Below are positions 1,173 through 20,347 of a stretch of DNA of 64,000 nt, piece after piece; the stretch's first letter is position 1; each line of letters starts with the position of its first letter. The notes under the pieces were generated by a model. That model was not told the origin of the DNA and did not search any database. It saw only the letters and a program-made list of their open reading frames with translations. The DNA is from Massilia sp. H-1. GTDB lineage: Bacteria; Pseudomonadota; Gammaproteobacteria; Burkholderiales; Burkholderiaceae_D. The stretch covers positions 2,170,001 through 2,234,000 of the forward strand of contig CP087969.1 in assembly GCA_024703915.1 (NCBI GenBank). The letters are read 5' to 3'. The translations under genes and the position numbers were made by a program.

Positions 1173-1202
1173 TTGACAACATGTTTTCGCACACGCTAGT
1201 AT
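1173..1202 (+). promoter_or_regulatory. sigma70-type promoter of the thiopeptide operon
   Basis: A perfect -35 box TTGACA (1173-1178) is followed after 18 bases by TAGTAT (1197-1202), a good -10 box. Transcription would start near 1209, leaving a leader of about 110 nt before the precursor gene. This is the only strong promoter I can point to upstream of the 19-kb gene train. Confidence 0.6.
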
Positions 1203-1260
1203 TTACTCGGCTCTGCGAAATGAGTAGTTCTGATCAGCATATCGGAGTAGTCGGGCGGTA

Positions 1261-1280
1261 CGCCGAAATGATTATCGGCG
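1261..1280 (+). promoter_or_regulatory. Small hairpin in the 5' leader of the precursor mRNA
   Basis: CGCCGA (1261-1266) can pair with TCGGCG (1275-1280) around an 8-nt loop. It lies in the predicted leader, about 40 nt before the precursor start. It may stabilise the mRNA; the function is only inferred. Confidence 0.3.
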
Positions 1281-1308
1281 CGCGGCCATGTTATTAACTC
1301 AACCAACC

Positions 1309-1314
1309 AAGGAG
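1309..1314 (+). promoter_or_regulatory. Ribosome binding site of the precursor peptide gene
   Basis: AAGGAG lies 5 nt before the ATG at 1320. It decides the start, because another ATG at 1316 is out of frame and closes quickly. Confidence 0.75.
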
Positions 1315-1319
1315 TATGT

Positions 1320-1484
1320 ATGCAAGACGTAATGATTGATCTGTCGATCGAAGGCCTGGAAATCGAAGAACTGAACATGTCCGACTTCGTCGCCGATGCC
1401 GCCGAAGGCAAAAGCGTTTCCAAAGTAATGTCCGCATCCTGCACCACTTGCGTCTGCACTTGCAGCTGCATCCTGCCGGTGTAA
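1320..1484 (+). CDS. Thiopeptide precursor peptide, 54 aa
   Basis: Encodes a leader of 39 residues and a core of 15. The leader (MQDVMIDLSIEGLEIEELNM...) is acidic and Leu/Ile-rich, as in thiopeptide leaders, and ends KVMSA before the core SCTTCVCTCSCILPV. Core positions 1-11 are identical to the thiocillin/micrococcin core. By analogy Ser1 and Ser10 would be dehydrated and joined into the central pyridine, giving a 26-membered ring. The cysteines at 2, 5, 7, 9 and 11 would become thiazoles and the Thr residues dehydrobutyrines. The tail Ile-Leu-Pro-Val differs from the Cys-Thr-Thr tail of thiocillin. The gene lies first in the operon behind a strong RBS. Recognition rests on this direct match and on the enzymes downstream. 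Confidence 0.95.
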   Translation: MQDVMIDLSIEGLEIEELNMSDFVADAAEGKSVSKVMSASCTTCVCTCSCILPV

Positions 1485-1509
1485 TGGCGACAGGTTAATA
1501 CGATTTGAA

Positions 1510-1533
1510 GAGTGCGTGGCTTACCGCGCACTC
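1510..1533 (+). terminator. Intercistronic hairpin after the precursor gene (attenuator or processing site)
   Basis: GAGTGCGTGG (1510-1519) pairs with CCGCGCACTC (1524-1533) around a CTTA tetraloop: 10 pairs, one of them G-U. It lies 26 nt after the precursor stop and no T-run follows, so full termination is unlikely. Such a stem between a RiPP precursor and its enzymes would raise precursor mRNA over enzyme mRNA. Confidence 0.5.
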
Positions 1534-1697
1534 CGGATGATCAGCCAGAGCATATGTATTCTGCATAGCCAGCGAATATATTTCCGCAGTCGAATAGTGA
1601 AACAAGTCCCTCCCCCAATTATGTTCCGCGCTATTAACTCTTATCCGCTTGATTCCGATGCATTAGCTGGCAATTCCCCGTCTTTTATTCCTGCCGC

Positions 1698-4324
1698 ATG
1701 AAACGGGAACACATCACAGGATCGCACCGGTATGCGATCGGGCTTGAGCGCCGCTGCAACCTGTCGTGGGCCGAGGTCGCCCCGGCCAGCGCCAGCGAAG
1801 CGCTCGCCCGGGCCGCCGCCGCCGCCGCCGCGGCCGCCCGCCGCCGCGCGGACGGGGACGCGCTGCACCAGCGCCTGCACGCCTTCGGCAGCCACGCCGA
1901 TCCCGCCATCAGCCGTGCGGCCCTGCGCCTGCGCCGCGACTTGTTCAATCAGCGGGTGCCCGGCCAGACCGATCCGCAGTTGCAGGACGCCCTGGACGCG
2001 GCCAGCGCCGCCGCGCTGGCCCGGTGGCGCGCCAGTGTGGCAGCCGAACAAAGCCTGGTAAGCGCCATGCTGCCAGCTTCCAGGACGCCGTGCAGCGCGC
2101 CCGCCTCTGTTTTGCTTAAGCCTGATCCTGGACAATCAGGATTTCGCCTGCGGCCTGCAAACGGCCAACCGCCGCGTGTACGCCCAGGCCCGCAGCTACG
2201 CCGAGGCGGTGCGCAGCCAGCTGCGCGCCTGGACAAGAAACTGCGCAGCACCGAAGACCGGATCGCCAGCTTCGTCTACAAGGTCGTCTCCAAGCCTTCG
2301 CCGTTCGCCTCCTTCGCCACCATCGTCCCGAGCGGCCCGGCCGCCGCCGGCCTGGACAGCGCCCGGCGCGACGTGCGCATCGCGCGCGACCTGCTGCTGT
2401 GGATGGAAGCGCAATGCGTGGCGCTGGCCGCGACGCTGGCCGACGCACTGCCCCTGCGCCTCAATAACACGGTCCGCACCGAGGACGGGCGGGTTCGCCT
2501 GTTCACGCGCGGCAAAGACGGCACGCCGGACATGCTGCATGCCGAGCGCTTCATCGAACTGAAACATTCGCCCGCCCTGAGCGCGGTACTGGACGCCTTC
2601 GGCGGCGCCGCCCCCACCCTGCCCGAACTGAGCGCGCGCCTGTGCGGTCCCGGGCGCGACCCGCAGCCGGGCCGCGCCTACCTGGACACGCTGCTCAAGG
2701 CGGGACTGATCGAGCGCGACTTCGGCATTCCCGACCAGGCTCCCGACTTTGCCGCGCGCCCGCGCAGCTGCTCACCGGCCTGCCGGACGGACGGGGCGCG
2801 CCGTTCGATGCCATCTTCGGCGACATCGCCCGGATCGAAAGCGCGCTGAGCGACACCCGCAGCGCGGCCGAACGCACGCCCTTGACGGCCGCCCTGTTCG
2901 CCTGCTTCCGGCGCTTCGCCGAGGCGCTCTCGATCCCGCCCGACGCGCTGATGGCAGTGCGCGACATCTACTATGAAGACGTGGGCGGCATCGCCCATCG
3001 GCGCCAGCCCGGCCCCGTTGCTGGCGCCTGACGAACAGCTGGCCCTGGACCGGCTCACGCCCCTGCTGATGCTGTTCGACAGCCAGCTCACGTCGCGCCT
3101 GTCCCTGCACAGCATCTTCCGCGAACTGTACGGCGCCATGCGCTCCGCGGTCAGCCTGCTGGACTTCTACCAGGCTTACCGCGCGCTGCCGAAGGAAGAC
3201 CTGTTCGCCCGCCTCACGGGCGCGCGCGACCCGGCCATCGCCCGCATCGACGCCTTGCGCAAGCAGTTCGCCGCCCTCGCGGCGCGGGCTTGCGCCGGCG
3301 CCTCGACGGCCAGGCCGATCTGGGCCAGGGCGAAGTGGCGGCCTGGATCGACACGCTGGCGCCGCAGCTCGATGCGCGCTCGGTCAGCTTCTTCCTGCAA
3401 GACCTGGAAGGCGGCGCCCACAGCAAAATCCTCAACAACGCCTAAGCACCGGCTTCGGTAGCGCCATGTCGCGCTTTGCTTAAGCCTGTTCGACGGACCG
3501 CGCGCATCGCTGGCCGGGGTCCTGGCGGACCTGCTGACGCAAGTGTGCGCGGACGCCGACGTGTTCGACATCGGCGCCGTGCTGGCCGCGAACTCCAATC
3601 TGCATCCCGCCATCGCGCCCGGTGAACTGATGTATCCGGGCGCACGCCGCCGCGGCCAAGGCGGTCCCGCGCTCAGCCTGGCCGCGATCGAGGTGGTCAG
3701 CCAGGACGGCCAGTTGCGGCTGCGCCATGCGGGCAGCAGGCGGCCGATCGAGTTCGTCTCCCACAACTTCATTCACCCGGGGGCCGGACCGGCGCTGTAC
3801 CGCTTCCTGCACCTGTTCAGCAAGCACTGGATCTACCGCGCCCAGGATTTGCTCGACGCCGTGGCTGGCGCGGCCGGTCCCCAGGCCTAAGCAATCCGCG
3901 CCTTTGCTTCGGACCGATCGTGCTGTGCTTAGGCGGGTCGTCGCCTTCGACGCCGCCGCGATCCAGCAAGCCGCCGCCGCGCGAGGACGACTACGCCAGC
4001 TTCCTCGGCCTCAATGCCTGGCGCGAGCGGATGCAGCTGCCGCGCATCGTGTTCTTCCGCGCCCAGGCGCTGGCGCCGCTCCAGGACGGCGGCACCGAAC
4101 TGGCGCTCGAGCGGATCCTGGCGCTGCGCCGCGGCCGCCTGCGCAAGCCGCACGTGCTCGATTTCCACAATCCCTTCCTGGTCCGCGTTTTCCTCAAGCA
4201 GGTCGCTTCGCTCGCCCCTGGCGACACGGTCCAGCTGCAAGAATCGCTGCCCGACTTCAACCGCGCCCCCGAGGGCGCCGCGCCGGTGCGCGAACTGATC
4301 GTACAGGCCGACCATGTCCGCTGA
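1698..4324 (+). CDS. Thiopeptide dehydratase, glutamylation protein (Lant_dehydr_N, TclK/TbtB-like)
   Basis: Family role: it transfers glutamate from tRNA-Glu to Ser/Thr of the azoline-containing core, the first half of dehydration. At about 870 codons it has the usual length of split LanB N-terminal proteins. Recognisable segments are DKKLRSTEDRIASFVYKVVSKPSPFASF (about 2235-2320), LPLRLNNTVR, and after repair NNAGTGFGSAMSRFAGLF (3433-3490) and GNPRLCFGPIVLCRRVV (3888-3950). Scars at 3440, 3478, 3885 and 3927 break the frame, and GCCGGC at each restores it. Further indels lie near 2060-2230, 2750 and 3000-3300. The N-terminus has an Ala/Arg-rich stretch from a GCC/GCG run. No clear RBS precedes 1698, so the start is uncertain. 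The end overlaps the next gene by 11 nt. Confidence 0.85.
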
Positions 4325-5289
4325 CGGCCTGCACTGGATCGCCCTGCACGCCCACGTCGGCAAGCACGAAGACGGGCTGCTGCGCGACGTGGTGGCGCCG
4401 CTGCTGGCGGCCGTCCCGGTGGCGCCTGAGCGTTTCTTCTTCCTGCGCTACTGGAGCGGCGGGCCGCATTTGCGCCTGCGCTTTCTGTGCGCGCCGGACG
4501 CGGCGCCGGCGCTGCGCGCCGCGTTTGCCGCGCGCTTCGCCGCCTGGGCCGCCACGGTCGGCGACTGGGGCGACACCCCGCACCTGGACGACAGCGCCCG
4601 CCTGGCCAGCCTGGAAGGGGCCGGGGTCGAAGCGTGGATCACGCCCCCGGCGCTGCTGGACGCGCCGTATGCGCCGGAGCTGGGCAAATACGGCGGCCCG
4701 CAGGGCGTGCGCACGGCCGAGCGCCTGTGGGCCGCGAGCACGCAGCTGGCGCTGGCCGCCAACGCCAGGGGGATGCTGCAAGGGACGGCGCGCCTGACGG
4801 CCGAAGCTTCGACATGGCGCTGGTCGGCGTGCGCGCCTTCGGCCTGGAGCTGGAAGCGGCCATCGCCTGGTTCCTGATGCCAGCGCCGCGATCTGGCAGC
4901 GCTACTGTCCGGGTGCGGGAACGGGCAGCTTCGACGCCCGCCTGGCGCAGCAGGGCACGCGCCTGGTGCCACCGCCGCCGCGCCTGTGGCAGGGGCCGCC
5001 CGGCCGGACACCCTGGTCGGCGCCTGGGGCGCGGCGTTGGCCGGCTGCGCTGCCGATGGTGGCGCAGCTGGCGCCATTGCTGCCAAGCGCCGCGCTGCCG
5101 GGCGACGCCCGAACGGCGGCCCACGATTACCTGCTGGCGCAGTACATGCACACCCACCACAACCGCTTCGGCATTGCCCCGGTCGACGAATGGTATCTGG
5201 CGCGCCTGGCCGGACAGGCCCTGCGCGCGTATGGCGCCGCGCAATCGAAGATCACATCGGACCACACCTCACTTTCGGAGCCCGCATGA
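4314..5289 (+). CDS. Thiopeptide dehydratase, glutamate-elimination protein (SpaB_C domain, TclL/TbtC-like)
   Basis: Family role: it eliminates the glutamyl group to leave dehydroalanine or dehydrobutyrine. The N-terminus has the family pattern: a Trp-His start (LHWIALHAHVGKHEDGLL), then FFFLRYWSGGPHLRLRF at about residues 43-59. The C-terminus has LLAQYMHTHHNRFGIAPVDEWYLARL, the usual ending with H-x-x-x-NR-x-G. The length, about 320 residues, fits. Frameshifts lie near 4805 and 4880-4960. The start at 4314 is set by the ATGTCCGCTGA overlap with the preceding gene, which indicates translational coupling. The stop overlaps the next ATG (ATGA). Confidence 0.85.
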
Positions 5290-6364
5290 ACAGCGCCTCG
5301 CCGCACGATGTGCGCTATCCCGCCAACTTCCTGGCCGTGGCCAGCGCCGCCGACGAAGACCGCCTGCTGCGCCTGTGCGCCAGCGCGGTGCTGGAACGCT
5401 ACTCGACGCCGACTGCTATTTCAACCGCTACCGGGCGCACGGCGCGCGGGCGTTTCTGCTGCACTTTCGCAGCACCCACAACATGCAGGAGCTGCTGCGC
5501 GCGGTCAGCGCGGGCGCCGCTGCCGATCCGCGCCCATTCGCGGCCGACTTCCTCCCCATCGTGCTCGATCCGAAAGCGGCGCTCGGCGACGTGTTCGGCG
5601 GAGTCGACAGCCTGGCCGTCTACGCCGCCTTCAGCTTCGACAGCGCGCCCCTGCTGTGGCGCTGGAGCGCCCAGGGCATGGCCGCGCCCGCGCCTGCCCT
5701 GCTTAGGCGGCGGCCGAAGTGCTGGTTCACTACATGTACCTCACCCGCAGCCGCTTCGACCACAAGTCGCACAACGCCTACCCGGGCCTGTTCGTGTCGT
5801 TCCGTTCCCATTACGAGGGCTTCGCCGCCTCGCTCGACGACCCGGGCGCCGCGCTGCGCGCCTTCGGGCAGCGCTACGCGGCCGTGAACCCGCTGCTGGC
5901 CACGCTGGCCGCGCGCCACGAGCACCATCCCGGCGCGCCCTGGCTGGCCGAGTGGCAGCAGCTGATCGAACGCGCCTTCGACGACATCCTGGAACGCGTG
6001 CGCCGTCACACCCTGGTTACGGGCATGACGGCCGACTACAGCGGCGGCGGAAAAAATCTGCTGGCCAGCAGCTTCCACGAAAAGATCGTCAGCACCAAGG
6101 AGTACACCGAGCATGCCATGAAGGAGCCGGTATTCCAGGCCAACCGCATCCTGCTCGGCCTGGTGTATCTGAGCCTGTTCCGGCTCGGTCTGCCGCTGAT
6201 TGAACGCTACTTCCTGTGCTACGCGATCAGCCGCTTCATCGAAGAGCGCCATGGCGTCAGCGCCGAACAGGCGTTCGACCGGGGCGTGGCGCGCACCGGC
6301 CCATGCGCGGCGCTGGTCCTGGCTGTTCAAACACCTCTCCTCCCAACAAGGCGCACCCCGATGA
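5286..6364 (+). CDS. Putative pyridine synthase ([4+2] cyclisation, TclM/TbtD-like)
   Basis: About 355 residues after repair. It is distantly SpaB_C-like: YFNRYRAHGARAFLLHFRSTHNM near the start, HKSHNAYPGLFVSFRSHYEGF in the middle and LSLFRLGLPLIERYFLCYAISRFIEE near the end. In characterised thiopeptide clusters the third member of this series joins two dehydroalanines and expels the leader. Here it directly follows the two dehydratase genes, and no other candidate exists in the window. A scar at about 5700 is cured by GCCGGC (PALPAAAEVLVHYMY). Other indels lie near 5400 and 6305. The expected ending WSWLFKHLSSQQGAPR stops at 6364 with an ATGA overlap. The apparent read-through into the ABC gene comes from the last indel. 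The assignment rests on position plus weak similarity. Confidence 0.65.
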
Positions 6365-7373
6365 TCAATGCAATCGAAACCCGCTCCGTCAGCAAGGTTT
6401 ACCGCACGGCGATGGAGACCAGCGTCGGCCTGCATGACCTGAGCATGGAGATCGGCGCCAACCAGTTCGCGGCCCTGGTCGGCCCGAACGGCGCCAAGCA
6501 AGACGTCCGCCATCAAGCTGATCGCCACGCTGGCCCGGCCGACCACCGGGCGCGTAACCGTGTTCAGGGCACGACGTCGTGCGCGAGGGCCAGGCCGTAC
6601 GCCGCCTGATCGGCTATGCGGGCCAGGAAACCTCGACCGACCTGTATGCGACGCCGCTGGAAAACATCCGCCACCACGCCACCATGTACGGCCTGACCAG
6701 CGGCGAGGCCAGGGCCAGCGCCGCCGAACTGCTCGACACCTTCGGCCTGCACCAGCAGGCGGGCATGGAAGTGCGGCGCCTGTCGGGCGGTCAGCGGCGC
6801 CGCCTCGACATCGCGCTGTCGATGGTGCACCGCCCGCGCCTGCTGATTCTCGACGAGCCGACCGTCAACCTCGACCCGGACGGGCGTCATGCTACTGTGG
6901 GACATCCTGTGCTTAGGCTGCGCGCCGAACGCGACCTGACGATCCTGTTTTCCACCCACTACCTGGACGAAGCCGATGGCTACGCCGACAAGGTGATTTT
7001 TGTCGACAAGGGCCGCTGCGTCATGTGGCGCACAGTCGACGAACTGAAGGCGAGCCTGGGCGGCGAATGCCTGGTGCTGCAATTCGACGACGGCGACCAT
7101 GCGATGCGCGCCGCGCGCCGCCTGACGCCGACCGAACAGTTCAAGGATGCGATGGTGGCAGGCGAGCGCATCGTCACGGCCTGTTCCACCACCGAGCACA
7201 TCACGGCGATCCTCAATTTCCTGGCCGAGCGCGATCTGGCGCCGAAAAGCGTCACGCTGTCGCGTCCCTCGCTCGACGATGTGTATATCCGCCTGACGGG
7301 GGCCTCGTTCGAACAAGTCAACATTGACGCCCAGAACAGCCGTCACCAACGCCTTGCATGGAGCTGGCTATGA
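6361..7373 (+). CDS. ABC transporter ATP-binding protein (product export or immunity)
   Basis: Classical ATPase of about 330 residues. The Walker A motif GPNGAGKTS is visible after repair of GCCAAGC at 6493 to GCCGGC. The signature is LSGGQRRRLDIALS (about 6780-6820), Walker B is LLILDEPTVNLDPDGR, and the H-loop is FSTHYLDEADG. The C-terminal part resembles DrrA-type exporter ATPases. A scar at 6908 and an indel near 6886 disturb the Walker B to D-loop region. The gene starts and ends in ATGA overlaps, so it is translated with its neighbours. With the next gene it should form an exporter for the mature thiopeptide; the substrate is inferred from context. Confidence 0.9.
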
Positions 7374-8139
7374 TTACCGATACCGTGCGCCTGGCGCGCC
7401 GCCTGATTCGCGCCCAGCTGAAAAAGCCGTTCTACATTCTGCTGTCGGTCAGCCAGCCGCTGATGTACCTGGTGTTTTTCGGCGCGATGTTTTCCAACAT
7501 GCCCGGCATGAGCCAGGACCAGCAGTCGTACATTTACTTCCTGACCCCGGGCATGGTGGTCATGGCCGCGCTGTTCGGATCGGCCTACCTGTCGGCTCTA
7601 GCACCCTGGCCGACGCCGACCGCGCCCTGTTCGACAGCATCGTCATCTCGCCGGTCAACCGCCTGTCGATCTCGATGTCGTACGTGTTCGCCAACTTGGT
7701 CGCGGTGATGCTGCAGATGCTGACCATCGCCGTGGCCGGGGTGCTGCTGGGCGGCTATCCAGTAGGCAGGCATGCCGCATGGGCCTGATCGCCCTGCTGC
7801 TGATCGGGACCCTGACCGGCATCGCCTTCGGCTGCGTCTCGAACACGGCTAAGCTTCCTGGTCAGGAAGGCGCAGCACGTCCTGTCGGCCATGAACTTCC
7901 TGGTCATGCCGCTGATGTTCATCTCGGGCATGATGCTGTCGATCCGGAACATGCCGGTCTGGATGCAGGAACTGGCCCGTTTCAATCCCGTGCACTGGGC
8001 CGTCACCGGGGCCCAGGCCGCCTACATGGGCAGCTGGAGCGGCGCGGCCCTGGCCAGCCTGTCGGCCCTGCTGCTGTTTACCGTGGTCATGGTGGGCGCC
8101 ATGCACCTGACCTTCGTCCGTTTCCTGGCGCGCCGCTAG
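7370..8139 (+). CDS. ABC-2 type transporter permease
   Basis: Integral membrane partner of the preceding ATPase, about 255 residues. Hydrophobic segments include PFYILLSVSQPLMYLVFFGAM, FLTPGMVVMAALFGSAYL, LVAVMLQMLTIAVAGVLLGG, GLIALLLIGTLTGIAFGCV and a C-terminal LLLFTVVMVGAMHL. The conserved ABC-2 stretch SAMNFLVMPLMFISGMMLSIRNMPVWMQELARFNPVHW is present. The frame is broken near 7598 and 7760 and at the scar GCTAAGC (about 7849), where GCCGGC gives NTAGFLVRKAQHVLS. The start overlaps the ATPase stop; an in-frame ATG at 7358 is the alternative. Confidence 0.9.
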
Positions 8140-8169
8140 GCGCCCCGCATCCTTCATCTGGAGAACCGC

Positions 8170-9861
8170 GTGGACCAACAACGCATTCGCATTCACGCCG
8201 ACGTCTACTTCCTGGAAGTGGTAAGCGGCGCCGTCATCCGTAACCGCAACGGCGCGCTCGAACTGTCCGGCGCCAGAAGCGTGTACCAGCTGCTGGCCTG
8301 GATCTTCAAGTCCTTCGACGGCTCGCGCAGCTACGCCGACACGGTCAAGGCGATTCCCGCCGCGCTCGAAAAGCATGCGCGCGCCATCGTCACGCGCCTG
8401 GTCGAACGCTCGTTCGCGCGCGTGCTCGACGAACAGCAGGAAGCGGTGGTGGCGCCGTTTCGTGCCCGCTTCCCTGAACTGAACAACATGCTCGAGTACC
8501 GCACCGCCTCGCCCGCCCAGGCCTGGCAGCGGATCGATGCGGCCAGGCTGGCGATCGACGCCGACGGCCCGTTCGGCGCCGCCCTGCGCGAAGCGCTGCC
8601 GCAGTATGGCTTGCAGGTGGCCGCTGGGGCGGCTGCATTGCGCATCGTCGCGGCTTAAGCACGCCGGAAAGCTGGACCGGCCTGGCCGCCACGGGCGCCG
8701 CGCCGCATGGGGCCGCGCTGTCTTAAGCACGGCGACGCGCTGTTCGTGCTGGTCCCCGGCGAACGGTCAAGCCCCTGCCGGGCACGCCCGACTTTCCCGC
8801 GCTCGTGACGCCTACGGCGCCGCCGCGGCGGCCACCGGCCTGCACGCGCCGGCCGCCCTGGCGATCGCCGTCCATGCCCTGTGCCTGGCCCTGTTCGAGC
8901 GCGTGGCGCTGGGGCAGGCGCACAACCAGGACCGTCTGCTGACGGTCGACGATGCCACGCTGACCCTGGGCAGTCACGCGCTCACGCCGTACGCGGTGCC
9001 GCGCCGCGACTGGCAGCCGCCGGGCACGCCGCTGAGCGCGGCACAGTGCGGCGCGGGGCTGCGCCAGGATCTGGGCGGATCGCTGCTGCCGGACGCGGGC
9101 GTGGCCGAACTGAATGCCATCGCGCGCTCGGTGCAGGCGCTGACCGACGAGCGCACCGGCCCGCTGGCGCGGGCCGACGACGGCGACCTGTTCCAGCTGC
9201 CGCTGGCCTCCTGCCTGGCCCATGCCGGCGCCGGATCGCGCGTGCTGATGCTGGGCCTGTCGGCGCGCGAGACGCGCAACCACGCCGCGCTGTGGGCCCT
9301 GGAGCAGCGCCTGGCGCACAACGGCCCGGCCCATGCGGGTGCCCATGCGGCATCGGCTGGAACCGCTGCGAGGCGCTGCTGCGCGCCGGCCGCCGCCTGT
9401 TTGAACACGAGGCGCGCGCACCGCACGCGGACCCGCAGGCGCGCGCGCTGGCCGACCTGCTTAGGCCAGCGCCGAGCTGGCCTACCTGGCCGAACTGCAC
9501 GACGACGCCGCACAGGCACGCTGGGTACGCAACGACTGCGGCTGGTTCGTGGCCAGCCATCCGGCCATGCCGCCGGGCGCGCCGGTCGCTCCTTTCGGCG
9601 TGGGCATCCTGCCCGAACTGGCGCTGGCCGATCTGTTCATCAAGCTGGCCTTTGTGCGCTACTACGACAGCGCCGCCTTCGACGCGGGCGCGGCGGTGCT
9701 GGTGCGCCTGGGCCTGGACGACGCCGCGCTCGGAACGCGCTGGCAGCGGCCATGGCCTAAGCTGCGAGGCGGCCGAACTGGCATTGCCGTGGCTGCCGGA
9801 GGCGCCCGCCGTGCGGCAGCCGGTCACCGTCGTGCTGCGCCGCGCCGCAGGACCGCGCTGA
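8170..9861 (+). CDS. Ocin-ThiF-like leader-binding partner of the YcaO cyclodehydratase (TclI/TbtF-like)
   Basis: GTG start with a GGAG box 6 nt upstream. The first 90 residues look like a PqqD-type RiPP recognition element (YFLEVVSGAVIRNRNGALELSGARSVYQLLAWIFKSFDG), which binds the leader peptide. The rest of about 560 residues resembles the truncated E1-like ocin-ThiF proteins that deliver the substrate to YcaO. One segment reads VASHPAMPPGAPVAPFGVGILPELALADLFIKLAFVRYYDSAAF. Scars at about 8655, 9459 and 9757 break the frame; GCCGGC at 9459 gives DLPASAELAYLAELHDDAAQARWV. The stop overlaps the next start in TGATG. The family assignment is by architecture and context. Confidence 0.7.
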
Positions 9862-11641: not shown

Positions 11642-11653
11642 CAGGCGAACTCC

Positions 11654-13140
11654 ATGATCTCTCACGCCCTCGACGACTTCTCCACCTTCGCCCGCGTCCT
11701 GCACGGCAGGCCGGAAGGCCTCGGCGTGCGGCCGCTGCTTAGCCCCGCGCGCCGTCCCGCGTGCTACCAGCCGGCCCCCCCTGCCACTCGCTGCCGCTGA
11801 GCGGCGCCGGTCTGCCGCCCCTGCTCGCCGATCTGGGCCGCGTGCTGTGGCGTACGCTCGGCTATACCCAGTTGCGCATCGACGCCGCCACCCAGGAAAT
11901 CGCGGCGCGGCGTCCGCTCGCTTCCGGCGGCGCGCGCTATCCGGCCGACCTGAGCATGGTGGTCGCCCCCGGCACGGGCGGCGCGCTGGGCGCCGTGGCC
12001 GGGCGCGTCCTGCACTACGCGCCGCAGTACCACCGGCTGTTCCTCGACACCGATGGCGACGCCGTCACCGCAGCGGCGCTGGGACTTGACGCGCTGGCGC
12101 CCGGCACGCTGCTGCTGGTGGTGCGCATCGACTTTCTGCGCACCTGGGAAAAGTACGGCGACTTCGCCTACCGTCTGAGCGCAGGTCGACACGGGCCTCG
12201 TGACCGGACGTCTGGCCGCGCTGGCCGCGCGCATGGGCGAGCTTGCCATCGATGTCGACTTCGACGGCCCGCAGCTCGACCGGGCATTGGGGCTGGATGA
12301 AGAAACCCAGGCCAGCTACTGTGTGCTGCGCCTGGTGCCGCGCGGGGCGAAGCGGGAGCGCCGTTCGTTCCCGCAGGCGCACGCGCTCGCGCGCGCCGGT
12401 CCTGGCGCGCAGCGAGCGCCTGTCGCGCCGCCTGCGCGAAGCGCACCGGCTGGCGCACGCGCGGCCCCGCGGCCGCGCAGGACGGACCGGCGGCCCCGTT
12501 CCTGGCATTTCGCGACGCGCCCGAGCTAGGCCTGGATCGCCCTGCCCGAGGCGGCCGCCGGTGCCGACACCGAAGAACAGGCGATCGCCGCGCGCACCTC
12601 GCGCGCCCACGCCTTTACCGGTCAGGCGCTGCCCGCCAGCACGCTGCGCGCCTGCCTCGACCGGGTCAGGCACAGCCTGGCGGCGCTGCAGGACGCCAGC
12701 GCGGCGGCGCTGGAACTGCCGCAGCTGCTGGTGTGCTGCCTGAACGTGCAGGGCGTGGCGGCGGGCGCCTACGCGCTGGCCGACGATGGCGCCGCACTGC
12801 GCCTGATCGCGCCCGGCCCCACCGGCGCGGCATTGTCCGAGGGCGCTGCTGCTGCAGTCGCTCGACATCCGGAAATCGGCGTTCGTGCTGCACGTGGTGG
12901 GCCGCACCTGGCAGCGCGACGCGGCGCGCGCGCGCGGGCGGGCGTACCGGATCGCCCAGATGCTGGCCGGCGCCGCGCTGGACGCGGCCACCCTGGCCGT
13001 GAGCGCGCCCGGCGTCAGCGCGCACGCCTATCTGGGCTTCGACGCGGCCCGCCTGGCCGCGCTGTACCGGGCTGGCGCCGGGCAGCACGGTGGGCGCGCA
13101 GCTGTGCGTGGGGGCAACCGCCATGCGGCTGCAGAACTGA
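11654..13140 (+). CDS. SagB-type FMN-dependent azoline dehydrogenase (TclN/TbtE-like)
   Basis: Oxidises thiazolines to thiazoles with FMN. The family hallmarks are LASGGARYPADLSMVV (about 11920-11965) and, after repair, RTWEKYGDFAYRLSAVDTGLVTGRL (12139-12210). The latter corresponds to the Trp-Lys-Tyr-Gly...Tyr-Arg motif of SagB proteins. The length of about 495 residues and a second nitroreductase-like half (AFVLHVVGRTWQRDAARARGRAYRIAQMLAGAAL) match the two-lobed thiopeptide members. Scars lie at about 11740 and 12526. The end GSTVGAQLCVGATAMRLQN at 13140 is inferred from the best-conserved frame. The RBS is weak. Confidence 0.85.
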
Positions 13141-13168
13141 CCCGCAGCCTCGCTTGCGCGGGCGCACA

Positions 13169-14405: not shown

Positions 14406-14412
14406 GACCCGC

Positions 14413-14692
14413 ATGCCGATTCAAATCCAACTTCCCGGCTCGCTGCGCCGTTTTGCCGACGGCAGCGCCCAGATTTCCGTCGAAGCGGCCAGCGTGGCCG
14501 AGGCGCTCGGCGCGCTCAGTGAGCGCTTCCCGCGCCTGGGCGGACATTTGCTGGCGGCCGACGGCAAGGTCCGGGGCTTCGTCAACGTATTCGTCAACAG
14601 CCGCGATATCCGCCATCTCGACAGCGAGCGCACCGTGCTCGCCAGCGGGGACGTGATCGCGCTGATGCTTACCAGCCATCGCGGGAGGCTGA
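14413..14692 (+). CDS. MoaD/ThiS/CysO-like sulfur carrier protein
   Basis: About 92 residues with the ubiquitin-like carrier fold pattern: MPIQIQLPGSLRRFADG, SVAEALGALSERFP and GFVNVFVNSRDIRHLDS. Read directly, the frame runs into the next gene. With one extra base removed near 14670 (cttaccagcc from ctgccagcc) the protein ends LPAIAGG, the diglycine tail of CysO-type sulfur carriers. The stop is at 14692, and the next ATG follows at 14695. The tail would be adenylated by the next protein and loaded as thiocarboxylate. In this cluster it probably supplies sulfur to the YcaO-TfuA pair. Confidence 0.8.
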
Positions 14693-14694
14693 AC

Positions 14695-15840
14695 ATGACA
14701 TTTCCACCACTGGCGGGAATCGGCAGGGAGCTGGGCCCGCAGGAGCGCCAGTACTACGGACGCCATCTGCTGCTGCCGGAAATCGGCGCCAGCGGCCAGC
14801 GCCGCCTGGCCGCCGCGCGTGCTGATGATCGGCGCCGGCGGGGCCTCGGTTCGCCGCTCGGCCTGTACCTGGCCGCAGCCGGCTGTCGGCACGCTCGGCA
14901 TCGTCGAATTCGACACGGTCGAAGCGAGCAACCTGCACCGCCAGGTCCTGTACGGCGTGGCGCAGATCGGCCAGCCGAAACTGGCCAGCGCCGCAGCAGC
15001 CCTGCGCGGGCTCAATCCCCATATCCAGATTGTCGAGCATGCCGTCCGGCTGGCGCCGGAGAACGCGCTGGCGCTGTTCGAAGGCTACGACCTGGTGGTC
15101 GACGGCACCGACAATTTCCCCACCCGCTATCTGATCAACGACGCTTGCGTGATGCTCGACAAACCCTATGTGCACGCGGCCATCGCCGCCTTCGAGGGCC
15201 AGCTGTCGGTGGTGTGGCCGGGGCGCGGTCCCTGCTACCGCTGCCTGTATCCGGAACCGCCGCCGCCCGGCCTGATGCCTTCCTGCGCCGAAGGCGGCGT
15301 GCTCGGGGTGCTGCCGGGCATCATGGGCTCGCTGCAGGCGAACGAAGTGATCAAGCTGCTCACCGGTGTCGGCGCGCCGCTGGTCGGACGTCTGCTGCAG
15401 TTCGACGCGCTGCAAATGCGGTTCCAGGAATTCAGAAACGCGCCGCCATGCTTAGCTGCGCGGTCTGCGGCGACACCCCGTCCCAGACCGAGCTGATCGA
15501 TTACGCGCAGTTCTGCGGCAGCGCCAGCGCATGGGCGCCGGACGAGGAAATCTCGGCCGCCGAAGTCGAGGCCTTGCTGGCCGGGGACGCGCCGCCCGCG
15601 CTGCTGGACGTGCGCGACGAACACGAGTGGCAGCGCCTGCGCATCGCGGGCGCCTCCCACCTGCCGCTGGCGCGCCTGGCCGAAGCCGGCGCCGCGCTCG
15701 ACGTCCACACGCCGGTCATCTGCTACTGCCAGTCGGGCCTGCGTTCGCGGCGCGCGGCCGCCATCCTGCGCGCGCAGGGCATGCGCAACGTCAGGAGCAT
15801 GCGCGGCGGGATCAACGCATGGAACGGGAGCGTGCTGTGA
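14695..15840 (+). CDS. MoeB/ThiF-type adenylyltransferase with C-terminal rhodanese domain
   Basis: About 380 residues. The N-terminal E1-like domain has the nucleotide motif MIGAGGLGSPLGLYLAAAG (after repair near 14830), then DTVEASNLHRQVLYG and DGTDNFPTRYLINDA. Zinc-binding CxxC pairs are CYRC and CAVCG, the latter after curing the scar at 15450. The C-terminal rhodanese domain has LLDVRDEHEWQRLRIAGASHLPL and the active loop ICYCQSGLRSRRAA. This architecture, as in MoeZ, both activates a carrier protein C-terminus and passes persulfide sulfur to it. It lies 3 nt behind its probable substrate, the MoaD-like protein. Confidence 0.9.
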   Translation: MTFPPLAGIGRELGPQERQYYGRHLLLPEIGASGQRRLAAARADDRRRRGLGSPLGLYLAAAGCRHARHRRIRHGRSEQPAPPGPVRRGADRPAETGQRRSSPARAQSPYPDCRACRPAGAGERAGAVRRLRPGGRRHRQFPHPLSDQRRLRDARQTLCARGHRRLRGPAVGGVAGARSLLPLPVSGTAAARPDAFLRRRRRARGAAGHHGLAAGERSDQAAHRCRRAAGRTSAAVRRAANAVPGIQKRAAMLSCAVCGDTPSQTELIDYAQFCGSASAWAPDEEISAAEVEALLAGDAPPALLDVRDEHEWQRLRIAGASHLPLARLAEAGAALDVHTPVICYCQSGLRSRRAAAILRAQGMRNVRSMRGGINAWNGSVL

Positions 15841-17058
15841 CGCCGATTTCCGTCCACGGCACGCGCACGCCCAAGGGTTTCCGGGACGGCACCGAGCGCA
15901 CCCGCAGCCCGTCCGAAACGCTGGAAGCGAACCGCCGCTTCATGCCGCTGATGGGCATCACGCGGCTGGCCAATATCACCGGACTGGACCGGATCGGCCT
16001 GCCGGTCGTGATCGCCGTGCGTCCCAATTCGCGCGCCCTGGCCACCTCGCAGGGCAAGGGCGCCACGCTCGAGGCGGCCAAGGCGTCGGCCCTGATGGAA
16101 TCGATCGAGACCTGGCACGCCGAGCGCGTCAGCGGGCCGCTCCAGTTCGAGTCGTCACTCGGCGCTGCGCGAACGCGCCAGCGTGCTCGATCCGGCCCTG
16201 CTGACCGTGCGCGCGGATGCCCGCTTCTTTCCCGAACGCGCGATCGCCTGGATCGAAGGACGCGAGCTGTTCTCCGACACCGCCCAGTGGCTGCCTTACG
16301 AGAGCGTGAGCGTGAACACGGTGCGCCAGCCGGGTACCAGTCCGATCTTCCTGGGCAGCAGCAATGGCCTGGCGTCGGGCAATCACCGGATCGAAGCGGT
16401 GCTGCACGCCAGTTGCGAAGTCATCGAACGCGATGCGCTCAGCCTGTGGGAACTGGTGCCCGCGGCGCTGCGCCGCCAGCGCCAGCTGAATCTGGCCAGC
16501 ATCGAGGATCCGGCCCTGGCCGCCCTGCTCGACCTGCTCGACCGCAAGGGCTTCGCGATCGGCGTATGGGACATCACGACCGATGTCGGCATTCCCACCT
16601 ATACCTGCATCCTGGTCGAAGACCCCGCCCACAGCAGCTGGCGCAGCCACCACATGTTCAGCGGCCACGGCACCCACCTGTCGCCGGAAATCGCGCTCTC
16701 GCGCGCCATCCACGAGGCGATCCAGAGCCGGCTGACCGCGATCTCCGGCAGCCGCGACGACTTCCTGTTCGCGGAGTACCGGCGCGCCAGCGATCCGGAC
16801 GACCATGCCCACGTGCTGGCCACCATCCGCGGCACGCCGTGCACCCGCCTGTTTGGCCAGGTGCGCCCGCCGCTGGCGGCCACCTTCGAAGACGATCTCG
16901 GCACCGTCATGGCGTCACTGGCGCGCTGCGGCGTGCGCAGCCTGAACGCGGTCGACCTGACCCGGCCGGAAATCGGCATCCCGGTGGTCAAGGTCGTCAT
17001 CGCGGGCCTGGAGGGACCGCGTCTGCAATCCTATACGCCGGGCCTGCGCGCGCGCTGA
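15837..17058 (+). CDS. YcaO-domain protein paired with TfuA (predicted thioamide synthetase)
   Basis: Second YcaO of the cluster, about 405 residues. N-terminal TRTPKGFRDGTERTRSPSETLEANRRFMPLMGITRLANITGLDRIGLPV is typical of TfuA-associated YcaO proteins. The ATP-site helix is SNGLASGNHRIEAVLHASCEVIERDALSLW (about 16362-16445), followed by GHGTHLSPEIALSRAIHEAIQSRLTAISGSRDD. It lacks the proline-rich tail of the first YcaO and ends SYTPGLRAR. Only one clear indel is seen, near 16160. It overlaps the MoeB stop by 4 nt and is followed by tfuA. YcaO-TfuA pairs install backbone thioamides in known systems, so thioamidation of this thiopeptide is predicted. Confidence 0.9.
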
Positions 17059-17075
17059 CAAAGAAACCTCGCATC

Positions 17076-18429
17076 GTGAGCATTCTCATCTTCCTCGGTC
17101 CCAGCCTCGATCTGGACAGCGCGCGGCCTGTGCGACGCGACCTACCTGCCGCCTGCACGCATGGGCGACATCTACCGCGCCTGCGCCCGGCGTCCGCACG
17201 CCATCGGCCTGATCGACGGCCTGTTCAGAACATACACCGGCGGTGTGGCACAAGGAGATCCTGCATGCGCTCGCGCTCGGGATCCGGGTCTATGGCGGCT
17301 CCAGCATGGGCGCGCTGCGGGCAGCCGAACTGCATCCATTCGGGATGCGCGGTGTGGGGCGCATCTTCGGCGATTTCGCCAGCGGCGTTCTGGAAGACGA
17401 CGACGAGGTGGCATTGATCCATGGACCGGCCGATACGGCGTATGCCTGCCAGTCCGAAGCCATGGCCAATATCCGCTGCGCGCTCGAAGAGGCGGTACTG
17501 GCTTAGCGTGCTTGACGCGCAGCAGGTCCGCCACTGCGTCGCGGCGGCCAAGGCGCTGCACTACCCGGAACGTACTTGGCCGCAGGTATTCCGGCTCGCA
17601 CGGGCGGGCGGCATTGGCATGCCGGCGCCGTGGCGGCGCTGGAGAGCTACATTGCGCGCGAGCGGCCCAACCAGAAACGCGACGACGCCATCGCCACGCT
17701 GACCCTGATCGAGCAGGAACGTGCGGCTTAGGCCCGGGACCGGCGCCCGGGTTCACCTTCGAACACACCAGTTTCTGGGAAACACTGCGTTCGGAATGCG
17801 AACCGGCCGAACCGGATGTCCAGCAACCGGACGTGCGCGCCGACCGGCTTGCCAGCCACGCGCGGCTGTTCGCGACCGCGCCCGCGCCGCAGCGGCACGG
17901 CGCCTTGCTGCTGCACTTGGCGGCGCAGGAAGCGGCGCGTCTGCAGCTGCCCCTGCCCGCCCCCGACAGCATGCTCGATGCGCTGTATGCGCGGCGCGGC
18001 CGCACCACCCCGGCCGAGCGCGCCGCCTGGCTTGCCGAGAACAAGCTCGATGCGCAGGACGCGCTGGAGCTGGCGCGCCTTGAACATCAGCTGCTCGAAT
18101 GCGAGCGGCGCGCGCGCGCGCTGCTGCGCCCCCTCACGCTCAAGGCGCTCAAGCTGGGGGGCACCTACGCCCAAGCCAGGCGGCATGCGGGCGCCAAGTG
18201 GCGCGCCCTCGACAAGAACGCTTTCGACAGCTACACCCAGGCCGACATCGCCCCGCTGGAGCAGGTGCTGGCCTGGTACGGCGAACGGCACGGCGCGCCC
18301 GGCGCCGACCTGGCCGGGTTCGCGGCGCGCCTCGGCTTCGACACGCTGCGCGAACTGATCACCGAGCTCAATGCCGAATACCTGTACCAGCGCATCGACG
18401 CCGATACCGCATCCACCACTTCATTCTGA
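17076..18429 (+). CDS. tfuA: TfuA-like protein, thioamidation partner of YcaO
   Basis: GTG start: VSILIFLGPSLDLDSAR is the TfuA N-terminus. Next come IGLIDGLF, VWHKEILHALALGIRVYGGSSMGALRAAELHPFGMRGVGRIFGDFASGVLEDDDEVALIHGPAD and MANIRCALEEAVL, all diagnostic. The scars at 17502 and 17726 change to GCCGGC and give VLAGVLDAQQVRHC and ERAAGPGPAPGFTFEHTSFWE, joining the pieces into one protein of about 450 residues. The C-terminal half (17760-18429) is helical and acidic, and I know no motif in it. TfuA is thought to help YcaO by recruiting or releasing sulfide. Other indels lie near 17130, 17225 and 17615. Confidence 0.85.
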
Positions 18430-18442
18430 CACGAGGGACCAC

Positions 18443-18934
18443 ATGAAAATCATCGCAAGCAAGCAGTCCAAGAAGGACAAGTACGACACGCTGCGCTGCA
18501 TCCGGCGCGACGGCAGCGAAACGACGGCCCAGATGCCGCGCCAGGGCGTGCTGCCGCACGATCTGATTCACTACGTGGTGGAATCGGCGCTCGGCTACGA
18601 TCACGGCTTTCTGGGCCTGGTGGCCAAGGGCGCGGACATCGGTTTCGCCATGGAGCAGACGCACGACATCGGCAACCGCGAGGTGGCCGACCAGGCCACC
18701 CATGCCGAAGCGATCGTCGAAAGCCTGCAGGCGCAGATCTGGTGCGGCGCCTTCGACGAGAGCGCTTTCATGGACGGCCTGGAAGCGGCCTGCGCGATGC
18801 GCGAGCGGGCCGCGCCCGCCCTCGACGGCCTGGACCTGGAACAAAACCTGTTCGGCGCCGTGATGGAACTGGGCCAGCGCTGGCAGCAGGTTCCGTTCTA
18901 TGGCTCGCTCGAACTGGAAATGAAGAACGTCTGA
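18443..18934 (+). CDS. Conserved protein of unknown function in the thiopeptide operon
   Basis: Intact frame of 163 residues with a GAGGGA box 7 nt before ATG. It begins MKIIASKQSKKDKYDTLRCIRRDGSE, then LPHDLIHYVVESALGYDHGFLGLVAKGADIGF. I recall the His-Asp-Leu...His-Tyr-x-Val-Glu pattern from a widespread bacterial family without assigned function. There is no signal peptide. It lies 13 nt behind tfuA and just before the exporter, so it is very likely co-transcribed. It may be a tailoring or immunity factor, but nothing in the sequence tells which. Confidence 0.8.
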   Translation: MKIIASKQSKKDKYDTLRCIRRDGSETTAQMPRQGVLPHDLIHYVVESALGYDHGFLGLVAKGADIGFAMEQTHDIGNREVADQATHAEAIVESLQAQIWCGAFDESAFMDGLEAACAMRERAAPALDGLDLEQNLFGAVMELGQRWQQVPFYGSLELEMKNV

Positions 18935-18944
18935 GGAGCGCGCC

Positions 18945-20347
18945 GTGAAAGACACCAAGGATCTGACGCGGGGCCCGATCCGCGGGCACTTGATCGCCAT
19001 GGCGCTGCCGATGGCGGTCGGCATGGGCGTGCAAATGCTGTACTACCTGATCGATCTGTATTTTGTCGCCCGCCTCGGCCACGACGCGCTGGCCGGGGTC
19101 GGCGCGGCCTAAGCAATGCCGCGCTGATCATCCTCGGCCTGACCCAGATCCTGAGCGTGGGCACCGTGGCGCTGACCTCGCACGCGGTCGGACGCCAGGA
19201 CGACGCCGCCGCCAGCGACGTGTTTTACCAGTCGCTGCTGATCGGCTGTGGCGCCGCGCTGGTCACGCTGCTGGCGGGGTACGCCATCATGATGACTACA
19301 TGCGCCAGATCTCGGCCAATGCCAGCATCAGCCGGCCTGGGCGCCACCTATCTGTACTGGTACCTGCCGGGCATGGCGCTGCAGTTCGTGCTGACCGCGC
19401 TCGGCTCGTCGCTGCGCAGGGGTAGGCCTCCTTGCAGCAGCAGCTACCATGATGGTCCAGCTGCTCACGGTGGTGATCAACATCGTGCTGGCGCCGGTCC
19501 TGATCATCGCTGGGGCACGGGACATCCGATGGGAGTGGTAGGCGCGGCGCTGGCCAGTACAGTCTCGGTGACGGCCGGGGCGCTGCTGTTGCTGCGCTAC
19601 TGCATGCGCCATCAGTCGTTCATGCGGATCGACCTGGCACGCCTGCGTCCGCGCCTGGCGACCTGGGGCAGCATCCTGAAAATCGGCCTGCTTAGGCGGG
19701 GAGGCGAATACCTGCTGATGTTCGCGTTCAGCGCCTTCGTGTACCTGATGCTGCGCGACTTCGGTGCCGCCGCGCAGGCCTGGCTTCGGCATCGGCACCC
19801 GCGTGCTGCAGGTGGTATTCCTGCTTAGGCGGCGGCTGGGGTTCGCCGTGCTTAAGCAGTGGCGGGACAGAACTACGGAGCGGGACTGGGCCAGCGCGTG
19901 CGCGAGACGCTGCGCACCGCGCTGCTGATGGAGGCGTTCATCATGGTGGTGCTGACCATCGTCTGCCAGGCGAGCCCCGGCGCGCTGCTCGGCATGTTTT
20001 CGTCCGACCAGCAGGTACTCGCGTTCGGCACCACGTTCCTGACCTACACTTCGTGGAACTTCCTCGCTTCCGGCATCGTGTTTGCCTGTTCCGGCCTGTT
20101 CCAGGCAATGGGCAATACCTGGCCTAAGCCCTGCTGTGCGCGGCGATGCGGGTCCTGACTTTCATGCTGCCGCTGGCGTGGCTGTCGCGTCAGAGCGGCT
20201 TTGAAGTGACGACCATCTGGAAGCTGTCGGTCGCCACTGTCGCCCTGCAAGCCTGCCTGGCCTTGCTTCTGGTGCACTGGCAAATGAAGAAGCGCCTGCT
20301 TAGGCAAGCGACGAGGCGCGCGCCCCGCTGGGCGCCATGCTGCCTAG
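18945..20347 (+). CDS. MATE-family efflux pump
   Basis: GTG start behind GAGGAG. It begins LTRGPIRGHLIAMALPMAVGMGVQMLYYLIDLYFVARLGHDALAGVGAAGNAAL, a typical MATE N-terminal repeat. The protein is about 455 residues with a dozen hydrophobic segments. VPAVAGQNYGAGLGQRVRETLRTALLMEAF marks the second repeat. Scars at 19107, 19683, 19825, 19854, 20126 and 20299 all give continuous MATE sequence when read as GCCGGC. Other indels lie near 19300, 19425 and 19515. The exact stop is unsure, because another possible scar (CCTAG) lies at 20343. It probably exports the thiopeptide or protects the producer. It converges with the minus-strand gene behind it. Confidence 0.85.

Follow-up and report, generated by a model that had tools for sequence, protein, structure and literature searches.

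A Probable Thiopeptide Biosynthetic Cluster with Predicted Thioamidation in a Burkholderiales-Like Chromosome

Gene Cluster and Host

Almost all known producers of thiopeptides, which are potent ribosome blockers, are Gram-positive. The 64,000-nucleotide stretch of DNA analyzed here (the window) carries a run of thiopeptide genes of ~19 kb (1320-20347) in the chromosome of a Gram-negative relative of Burkholderia and Cupriavidus. All the features described below lie on the forward (+) strand.

The first-pass annotation had stated that a Gram-negative host carries a complete set of thiopeptide genes at 1173..20347. The profile, fold and 16S data agree with this, and the boundaries are right, 1173 being the start of a promoter-like site, TTGACA-18-TAGTAT (1173..1202), which is a weak pattern match (one found, 1.0 expected in shuffled sequences). 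Pieces of every enzyme named in that annotation were found by profile, the ocin-ThiF partner being a weak match. Flanks from a Gram-positive genome, one of the two grounds for doubt that it raised, do not fit the 16S on the same contig: the 12 best of 525 matched records are all from Burkholderiales genera. Gene order and families are directly in hand, as are the retained position of a catalytic Tyr and the 16S affinity of the host. The region 1320-20347 is probably a thiopeptide biosynthetic cluster in a Burkholderiales-like Gram-negative chromosome, with a predicted thioamide-bearing, pyridine-centered and likely ribosome-binding product. A sulfur-rich, likely ribosome-blocking peptide is predicted because a thiopeptide precursor, thiopeptide enzymes and a YcaO-TfuA-ThiS-ThiF sulfur module are united in one run.

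The window's own frames are broken and most genes are split between frames; the broken pieces of LanB-N, SagB, SagD (NCBIfam), F and the synthase all score under the curated cut-offs. These breaks, the other ground for doubt, could be real, leaving a relic that no longer works. We find this very unlikely: the one-contig assembly has a completeness score of 48%, the error-like motif GCTTAAGCCTG (one mismatch allowed) occurs 12 times versus 0.67 expected, and near-identical database copies (92.7-100% identity, without breaks) are intact for the synthase and the second YcaO, the only two genes open to this check. From these two genes, we infer that the frame breaks are assembly errors.

Precursor Peptide

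The first gene (1320..1484) encodes a precursor of 54 aa with the core SCTTCVCTCSCILPV. It reaches 52.6 bits against NF033401 (cut-off 37.5), which identifies it as a Ser/Thr/Cys-rich thiazolylpeptide precursor, and 43.7 bits against TIGR03892 (cut-off 25). Both KVMSASCTTCVCTCSCI and the KVMSA preceding the core are invariant in the nine aligned precursor sequences, and leader cleavage is predicted before SCTT. Between the precursor and the first enzyme gene, fold prediction gives a 10-bp hairpin (1510..1533), a possible attenuator or processing site; the intergenic fold around it is, as a whole, not unusual (z = -1.0).

The core residues fit the label "thiocillin-type" of the first-pass annotation. 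The thiocillin core SCTTCVCTCSC and the pyridine predicted here are in common with thiocillin and micrococcin P1 of Bacillus and Staphylococcus. The label is incomplete, however, as the thioamidation module (TfuA at 124 bits, second YcaO) was overlooked. The tail differs as well (ILPV here, CTT in thiocillin and micrococcin P1), the host is Gram-negative, and TfuA-YcaO and ThiS-ThiF are additional; thiocillin clusters are not known to contain them. The thioamidated thiopeptides of Actinomycetota share the core pattern SCTTC[VI]CTCSC with this cluster, but the precursors of their TfuA loci end in CSS, whereas this one ends in CILPV. The core SCTTCICTCSCSS of the thiopeptin/saalfelduracin subfamily is not present in the precursor.

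Pyridine Synthase

By sequence and structural model, the best-supported enzyme of the cluster is the putative [4+2] pyridine synthase (5286..6361), PbtD/TbtD-like and frameshifted. The intact near-copy P0131 maps to it as four pieces with 93.8-100% identity. Against NF045556, the window pieces score 94.2 bits and P0131 97.7 bits, both under the equivalog cut-off of 325. In the PDB, the sequence of the near-copy matches PbtD (5e-10), TbtD (9e-7) and TsrE (4e-6). With an AF2 model of the synthase (mean pLDDT 75.7), the 13 best Foldseek hits are chains of PbtD, TsrE/TsrL (7cww) and TbtD, with 16-21% identity over the structural alignments, followed by LanB dehydratases. The fold and the position of PbtD Tyr293 are thus common to this enzyme, GE2270 PbtD and thiomuracin TbtD. 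Structures 8ejz and 8ejy, judged by title, carry a change at this residue; its counterpart in P0131 is Tyr294, invariant in all nine aligned sequences. Sequence, fold and Tyr together point to a [4+2] aza-cyclase that falls short of the equivalog cut-off.

The same residues bear on the type of ring. A thiostrepton- or thiopeptin-like product would have a dehydropiperidine or piperidine ring and retain the pre-core VMSA. It would agree with the 9/9 conservation of KVMSA and with the resemblance of VMSASCTTCVCTCSC to the precursor end VASASCTTCICTCSCSS of Streptomyces tateyamensis (locus L034), whose thiopeptin carries a dehydropiperidine or piperidine according to PMC8498797. We nevertheless consider it unlikely, since the synthase keeps both the PbtD-type FRSH and the Tyr; it is not a TsrE-type cyclase devoid of this Tyr, as expected for thiopeptin and saalfelduracin. 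In all three readable cyclases of the TfuA-bearing actinobacterial loci, FRSH is missing and Asn occupies the Tyr position; the hosts of the Tyr-less cyclases include the saalfelduracin and thiopeptin species. A pyridine therefore remains the predicted ring.

Dehydration, Azole Formation and Transport

The dehydratase is of the split LanB type. Its glutamylation protein (LanB N; 1698..4318), frameshifted, matches PF04738 in one piece with 21.3 bits, under the cut-off of 28 on this fragment, and has 31-32% identity to counterparts in three of nine actinobacterial precursor loci. The elimination protein (4314..5290), also frameshifted, scores over the cut-off with PF14028 (83.1 bits) and reaches 61 bits against TIGR03891 (cut-off 48.45). 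The azoline-forming YcaO (9862..11640) is SagD-type, with 103.5 bits for PF02624 and 94.5 bits for TIGR03604, the latter under the cut-off. A putative SagB azoline dehydrogenase (11654..13139) gives a match on a fragment (TIGR03605, 39.8 bits, E 3e-10; cut-off of 78.4 unreached). The ocin-ThiF-like partner F (8152..9862) gives 18.4 bits against TIGR03693 (E 5e-4, under the curated cut-off); its top PDB match, PbtF, is non-significant (E 0.15). Its N-domain likely binds the leader.

Heterocyclization and dehydration enzymes identical in kind would also serve a goadsporin-like linear peptide of azoles and dehydroamino acids, with no macrocycle. A separate cyclase of the PbtD/TbtD fold adjoins the elimination protein, and we regard the linear product as scarcely credible beside the macrocyclic thiopeptide.

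A cytochrome P450 (13142..14405) is matched in its C-terminal piece (PF00067, 24.9 bits; cut-off 22.8). Three genes account for transport: an ABC transporter ATPase (6361..7370; PF00005, 49.8 bits), an ABC-2 permease (7370..8139; PF01061, 33.9 bits) and a MATE efflux transporter (18944..20347; PF01554, 49.3 bits; TIGR00797, 42.4 bits, under the cut-off). Upstream of the latter, a protein of 163 aa (18443..18934) belongs to an unknown family: it has no match in Pfam, NCBIfam or the plasmids, nor in the PDB below E 0.4, and its predicted structure (pLDDT 43.8) is uninformative.

Predicted Thioamidation Module

Four genes at 14413-18428, absent from the first-pass annotation, encode a ThiS, a ThiF-rhodanese, a second YcaO and a TfuA. 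The ThiS/ubiquitin-like sulfur carrier (14413..14692) scores 33.8 bits with PF02597 (cut-off 22.5) and 40.6 bits with the SAMP1 model, whose cut-off of 60 is unreached; the frame adjoining the match terminates in Ala-Ile-Ala-Gly-Gly-stop. An E1-like ThiF enzyme (214.9 bits) with a C-terminal rhodanese (66 bits) follows at 14695..15840. The second YcaO (15819..17076; PF02624, 225.7 bits) is predicted by homology to be of the thioamidation type. Its nearest PDB relative is MJ1094 (E 3e-27), and P0010 maps to it in two pieces (92.7 and 95.8%). It scores 151.4 bits against TIGR03266 and its intact copy 225, both under the cut-off of 365. The frameshifted TfuA-like protein (17076..18428) matches PF07812 over the piece 17213-17503 (124.2 bits; cut-off 30), so that YcaO and TfuA genes are adjacent, as in thioamidated RiPP clusters. 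Because this module joins the thiopeptide enzymes, a thioamidated pyridine thiopeptide is predicted. According to PMC13063428, thioamide YcaOs outside sulfide-rich settings tend toward thiocarboxylated ThiS homologues and TfuA.

The second YcaO-TfuA might instead act on another substrate, either a protein or with a different backbone change. YcaO enzymes are versatile, and a YcaO of Pseudomonadota thioamidates the ribosomal protein uL16; the same paper places no TfuA near the suspected uL16-modifying YcaOs (PMC13063428). In this cluster, the pair lies on the same strand as the other genes, within the run between the P450 and the MATE transporter. In addition, the genome records matched by relatives of the precursor, the second YcaO and the synthase appear to coincide in three cases, the identities for the second YcaO spanning only the matching quarter to third of the query. 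Action on another substrate thus seems quite improbable, and the thiopeptide is retained as the predicted substrate.

The known thioamidated thiopeptides saalfelduracin, thiopeptin and Sch 18640, from Gram-positive hosts (Actinomycetota), offer the closest comparison. At three of four TfuA-bearing loci, LanB N and C, cyclase, SagB, YcaO, second YcaO and TfuA are all matched in one neighborhood; at the fourth, from M. arborensis, SagB and the cyclase are unmatched. ThiS, ThiF and the rhodanese, present here, are matched in none of the four.

Proposed Pathway and Self-Resistance

In the pathway that we propose, the F protein would dock the leader, and the SagD-type YcaO and SagB would convert the five core cysteines to thiazoles. 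The split LanB would glutamylate Ser/Thr and then eliminate, yielding dehydroamino acids, from which the PbtD/TbtD-like enzyme would form the pyridine (core Ser1 and Ser10) and expel the leader. Sulfur would be loaded onto ThiS by the ThiF-rhodanese and released by TfuA, for the second YcaO to turn one backbone C=O into C=S. The P450 would hydroxylate a side chain, and the product would leave through the ABC and MATE pumps. By calculation, a product of the ILPV core with five thiazoles and a pyridine, and with every Thr left intact, would have an [M+H]+ of 1361.439 (1347.424 with IVPV), lowered by 18.011 for each dehydrated Thr and raised by 15.977 for each thioamide and 15.995 for each hydroxyl, two increments that lie 0.018 Da apart. 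Applied to micrococcin P1, this calculation yields 1144.217, as compared with the 1144.219 given in PMC8878052.

No target-based self-resistance was found in TSNR_N, L11 or the 23S 1067 region. The profile search of the genome gave no TSNR_N match. The N-terminal stretch of L11 is the same as in 9 of 14 congeners, the other five differing by one or two residues, and the 23S 1067-region pattern occurs five times with only the last base differing. Protection of the producer must therefore come from export or from some unrecognised feature. A Gram-negative bacterium that made such a compound while its L11 and 23S rRNA look ordinary would reveal how cytosolic synthesis can proceed without self-killing, and the in-cluster sulfur relay would make peptide thioamidation amenable to testing in a compact system. 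With confidence a little short of even, we tentatively propose a thiopeptide line native to Gram-negatives, the first to combine PbtD-type pyridine closure with thioamidation, in which an in-cluster ThiS-ThiF-rhodanese relay would operate and the producer would be shielded by export and the outer membrane, its ribosome unaltered.

Distribution of Related Clusters

The cluster had been called likely undescribed. The exact cluster was not met in our searches, but kindred precursors in TfuA clusters have already been mined, so that this kind of cluster was foreseen: the text and legends of PMC8120280 report thiazolylpeptide-like precursors in Rhizobium and Herbaspirillum, beside TfuA-YcaO, with MoeB, ThiS, P450 and F-RRE named in the legends. 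Compared on this basis, those precursors are berninamycin-like and the genera differ. Clusters of Janthinobacterium and Massilia have also been labelled "thiopeptide" automatically (PMC5080296, PMC7988111). The literature matches listed, subscription papers being outside their scope, include no characterised Gram-negative thiopeptide.

Among the genomes sampled at the level of genus, family, order, class and phylum (the last four covering part of larger groups), NF033401 matched only the cluster's own; it matched none of 14 control genomes and missed a precursor-like ORF of G113, so that divergent precursors may escape it. No close relative of the exact cluster was found in scans of genome contigs, from which near-relative records were possibly excluded: of 42 pattern matches to the precursor alignment, tblastn confirmed none, and the DNA pattern for SCTTC[VI]CTCSC gave nine loci, all Actinomycetota by title.

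NF045556 matches 15 of 392 family genomes, this one included, none over the cut-off. In 17 regions of the 14 others, weak matches to LanB, YcaO, ABC and, once, F were found (~26-42%), while precursor, SagB, P450, ThiS, ThiF and TfuA were unmatched at E <= 1e-4. These regions were rejected as the same cluster and taken for other RiPP clusters.

In plasmids, the precursor had no match, and the synthase matched two weak Streptomyces records. One Rhizobium plasmid region was examined and set aside, as it holds YcaO-TfuA without thiopeptide genes. The second YcaO matched 313 plasmid records, the best 20 of them at 35-47% identity; one record falls in the 60-80% band.

Gene Content and Precursor Peptide

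The window, bases 2,170,001-2,234,000, belongs to a single 5.84-Mb contig with a completeness score of 48%. Between 1320 and 20,347, a precursor gene and 15 others are encoded on the forward strand. The precursor gene (1320-1484) comes first and is followed by those for the LanB N-protein, the LanB C-protein and the pyridine synthase, and then, in order, by an ABC ATPase, an ABC-2 permease, an F-like protein, YcaO, SagB, a P450, ThiS, a ThiF-rhodanese protein, a second YcaO, TfuA, a 163-aa orphan (18,443-18,934) and a MATE pump, the last gene, ending at 20,347. The thiopeptide gene set recognized in the first-pass annotation is confirmed. A 10-bp hairpin (1510-1533) lies between the precursor and the first enzyme gene, placed as an attenuator or a processing site would be. 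The G+C content of the cluster is 0.695, versus 0.627 for the part of the window to its right, and dips over the ABC genes (0.641 at 6001-8000); from this contrast, the cluster is possibly acquired and of mosaic origin.

The precursor, MQDVMIDLSIEGLEIEELNMSDFVADAAEGKSVSKVMSASCTTCVCTCSCILPV, scores above the curated cut-offs of both NF033401 and TIGR03892. A search of 5.8 billion proteins returned eight relatives at E <= 0.001, and KVMSASCTTCVCTCSCI is invariant across the alignment of these proteins with the window reading. The closest of them (P0001, 96%), which may be the window's own protein, differs from the window reading at two residues, E for K31 and V for L52, reflecting either a strain difference or a base error.

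Frame Breaks

The majority of the cluster genes are divided between reading frames. For two of them, the cause could be checked against an intact database copy: when aligned to the window, the 358-aa pyridine synthase P0131 falls into four pieces spread over three frames (93.8-100% identity), and the second YcaO P0010 into two (92.7 and 95.8%). The motif GCTTAGGC/GCCTAAGC occurs 29 times in the window, and GCTTAAGCCTG, with one mismatch, 12 times versus 0.67 expected. This recurring motif (e.g., at 2114-2124, 3478-3488 and 13,405-13,415), which coincides with several frame breaks, is probably a base-calling artefact. Given the intact copies, the over-represented motif and the low completeness in one contig, the breaks in these two genes probably stem from assembly errors that were left uncorrected; by extension, the same would apply to the remaining ones.

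Pyridine Synthase

The defining enzyme of the cluster is the pyridine synthase. Querying the protein database with the 218-aa C-terminal piece of this enzyme yielded nine relatives, seven with 62-99% identity and two distant ones with 35-36%, one of the latter named Actinokineospora. In the PDB, the sequence of P0131 matches PbtD, TbtD and TsrE. A model built from a nine-row alignment (mean pLDDT 75.7) has chains of PbtD, TsrE/TsrL (7cww) and TbtD as its 13 best Foldseek matches, with moderate TM-scores of 0.53-0.64 by query, followed by the LanB dehydratases MadB, NisB and MibB. Tyr294 of P0131, invariant in all nine aligned sequences, pairs in the HMMER alignment with PbtD Tyr293, the residue changed in PDB entries 8ejz and 8ejy according to their titles. 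A point against this assignment is that the intact P0131 scores only 97.7 bits on NF045556, below the equivalog cut-off of 325.

Predicted Thioamide Module

TfuA is clearly identified by PF07812 (124.2 bits against a cut-off of 30). The nearest PDB sequence to the second YcaO is MJ1094 (E 3.4e-27), and its intact copy reaches 225 bits on the McrA-glycine thioamidation model TIGR03266, under the cut-off of 365. Genes for ThiS (33.8 bits) and ThiF-rhodanese (214.9 and 66 bits) adjoin this pair. The frame beside ThiS terminates in Ala-Ile-Ala-Gly-Gly-stop, immediately ahead of the ThiF start; a Gly-Gly tail is typical of ThiS-type sulfur carriers. Since ThiS, ThiF-rhodanese, the second YcaO and TfuA occur together, the cluster plausibly encodes a complete sulfur relay, which presumably acts on its own peptide. 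Thioamide YcaOs outside sulfide-rich settings are reported to show a tendency toward thiocarboxylated ThiS homologues, with TfuA as hydrolase (PMC13063428). Homologues of the second YcaO (44.7-47.3% identity) are also found on large Azospirillum plasmids, among the matches listed.

Comparison with Actinobacterial Loci

The DNA pattern SCTTC[VI]CTCSC was encountered in nine genome_contigs records, all actinobacterial by title, in a collection that may omit near relatives of this genome. Among them are A. saalfeldensis and S. tateyamensis, the species of saalfelduracin and thiopeptin, respectively (PMC9231227, PMC8498797). Eight of the nine genomes were searched with P0010: four gave strong matches (E <= 6e-47) and four weak ones only. 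Two stretches from each of the four strong-match genomes were compared with the window. TfuA is close to YcaO in all four loci, as in the window, and matches to the synthase and SagB are present in three. ThiS, ThiF and rhodanese have no match at E <= 1e-3 in any of the four. The three actinobacterial cyclases carry Asn at the place of the Tyr and lack the FRSH motif, unlike the window synthase; one of them is from Streptomyces sp. RPT161, for whose locus we know of no product. Thiopeptin is a dehydropiperidine/piperidine compound (PMC8498797). In the window, then, the thioamide module is paired with a cyclase of the pyridine type, and the kind of product that they yield is a prediction.

Self-Protection

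A profile search for a TSNR_N methyltransferase found none in the genome, the model matching 1 of 14 control genomes. The L11 N-terminal domain is the thiopeptide site. It was matched in 15 of 17 genus genomes, the own one included, and all 15 were compared: the own stretch is the same as in nine of 14 congeners, while one differs at the last residue shown and four at two residues. What we take to be the 23S 1067-region pattern occurs five times, the last base alone differing. For the 163-aa orphan, neither a family nor a plasmid match was obtained, PDB matches stayed below significance and modelling gave nothing usable; it may serve in immunity or in tailoring. As a remaining candidate, self-protection might rely on ABC and MATE export plus outer-membrane exclusion.

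Host and Distribution

The 16S gene on the same contig gave no sign of a Gram-positive host: the best 12 of 525 matching records are all Burkholderiales replicons (91.0-91.7%). The comparison was with a collection of plasmids, from which close records may be missing. NF033401 matches the own genome only, in overlapping samples that each include it (1/17 genus, 1/392 family, 1/399 order and 1/398 phylum genomes), and none of the 14 control genomes. The synthase alignment likewise matched 1 of 340 class genomes, the own one included. Database relatives of the precursor, second YcaO and synthase share longest-contig values of 23,620 (P0001, P0010, P0131), 244,222 (P0005, P0013, P0137) and 20,412 (P0007, P0016, P0135), and those of the precursor and synthase only, 7192 (P0003, P0134); each such set probably comes from one contig.

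The first-pass annotation considered a full thiopeptide set in a Gram-negative host unusual and likely undescribed, which is correct as far as it goes; with the thioamide module, the case is more unusual still. In PMC8120280, TfuA clusters with thiazolylpeptide-type precursors are reported from Proteobacteria, those of Rhizobium and Herbaspirillum being berninamycin-like, and figure legends name MoeB, ThiS, P450 and a thiopeptide F-RRE. Two further papers mention a thiopeptide-lantipeptide call in J. agaricidamnosum (PMC5080296) and a Massilia thiopeptide call with NTF2-family and OsmC/YcaO proteins as core genes (PMC7988111). The kind of cluster was therefore already foreseen by genome mining. 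No characterised Gram-negative thiopeptide was found in the open-licence literature, among the matches listed.

Another RiPP-like cluster is present in G113, a genome of the same family (regions L035, 13,794-14,054 and 15,713-19,546, and L036). It comprises a short ORF rich in Cys and Ser, an ABC ATPase, a YcaO-like match and a 1278-aa open frame, whose C-part scores 200.8 bits on NF045556, under the cut-off.
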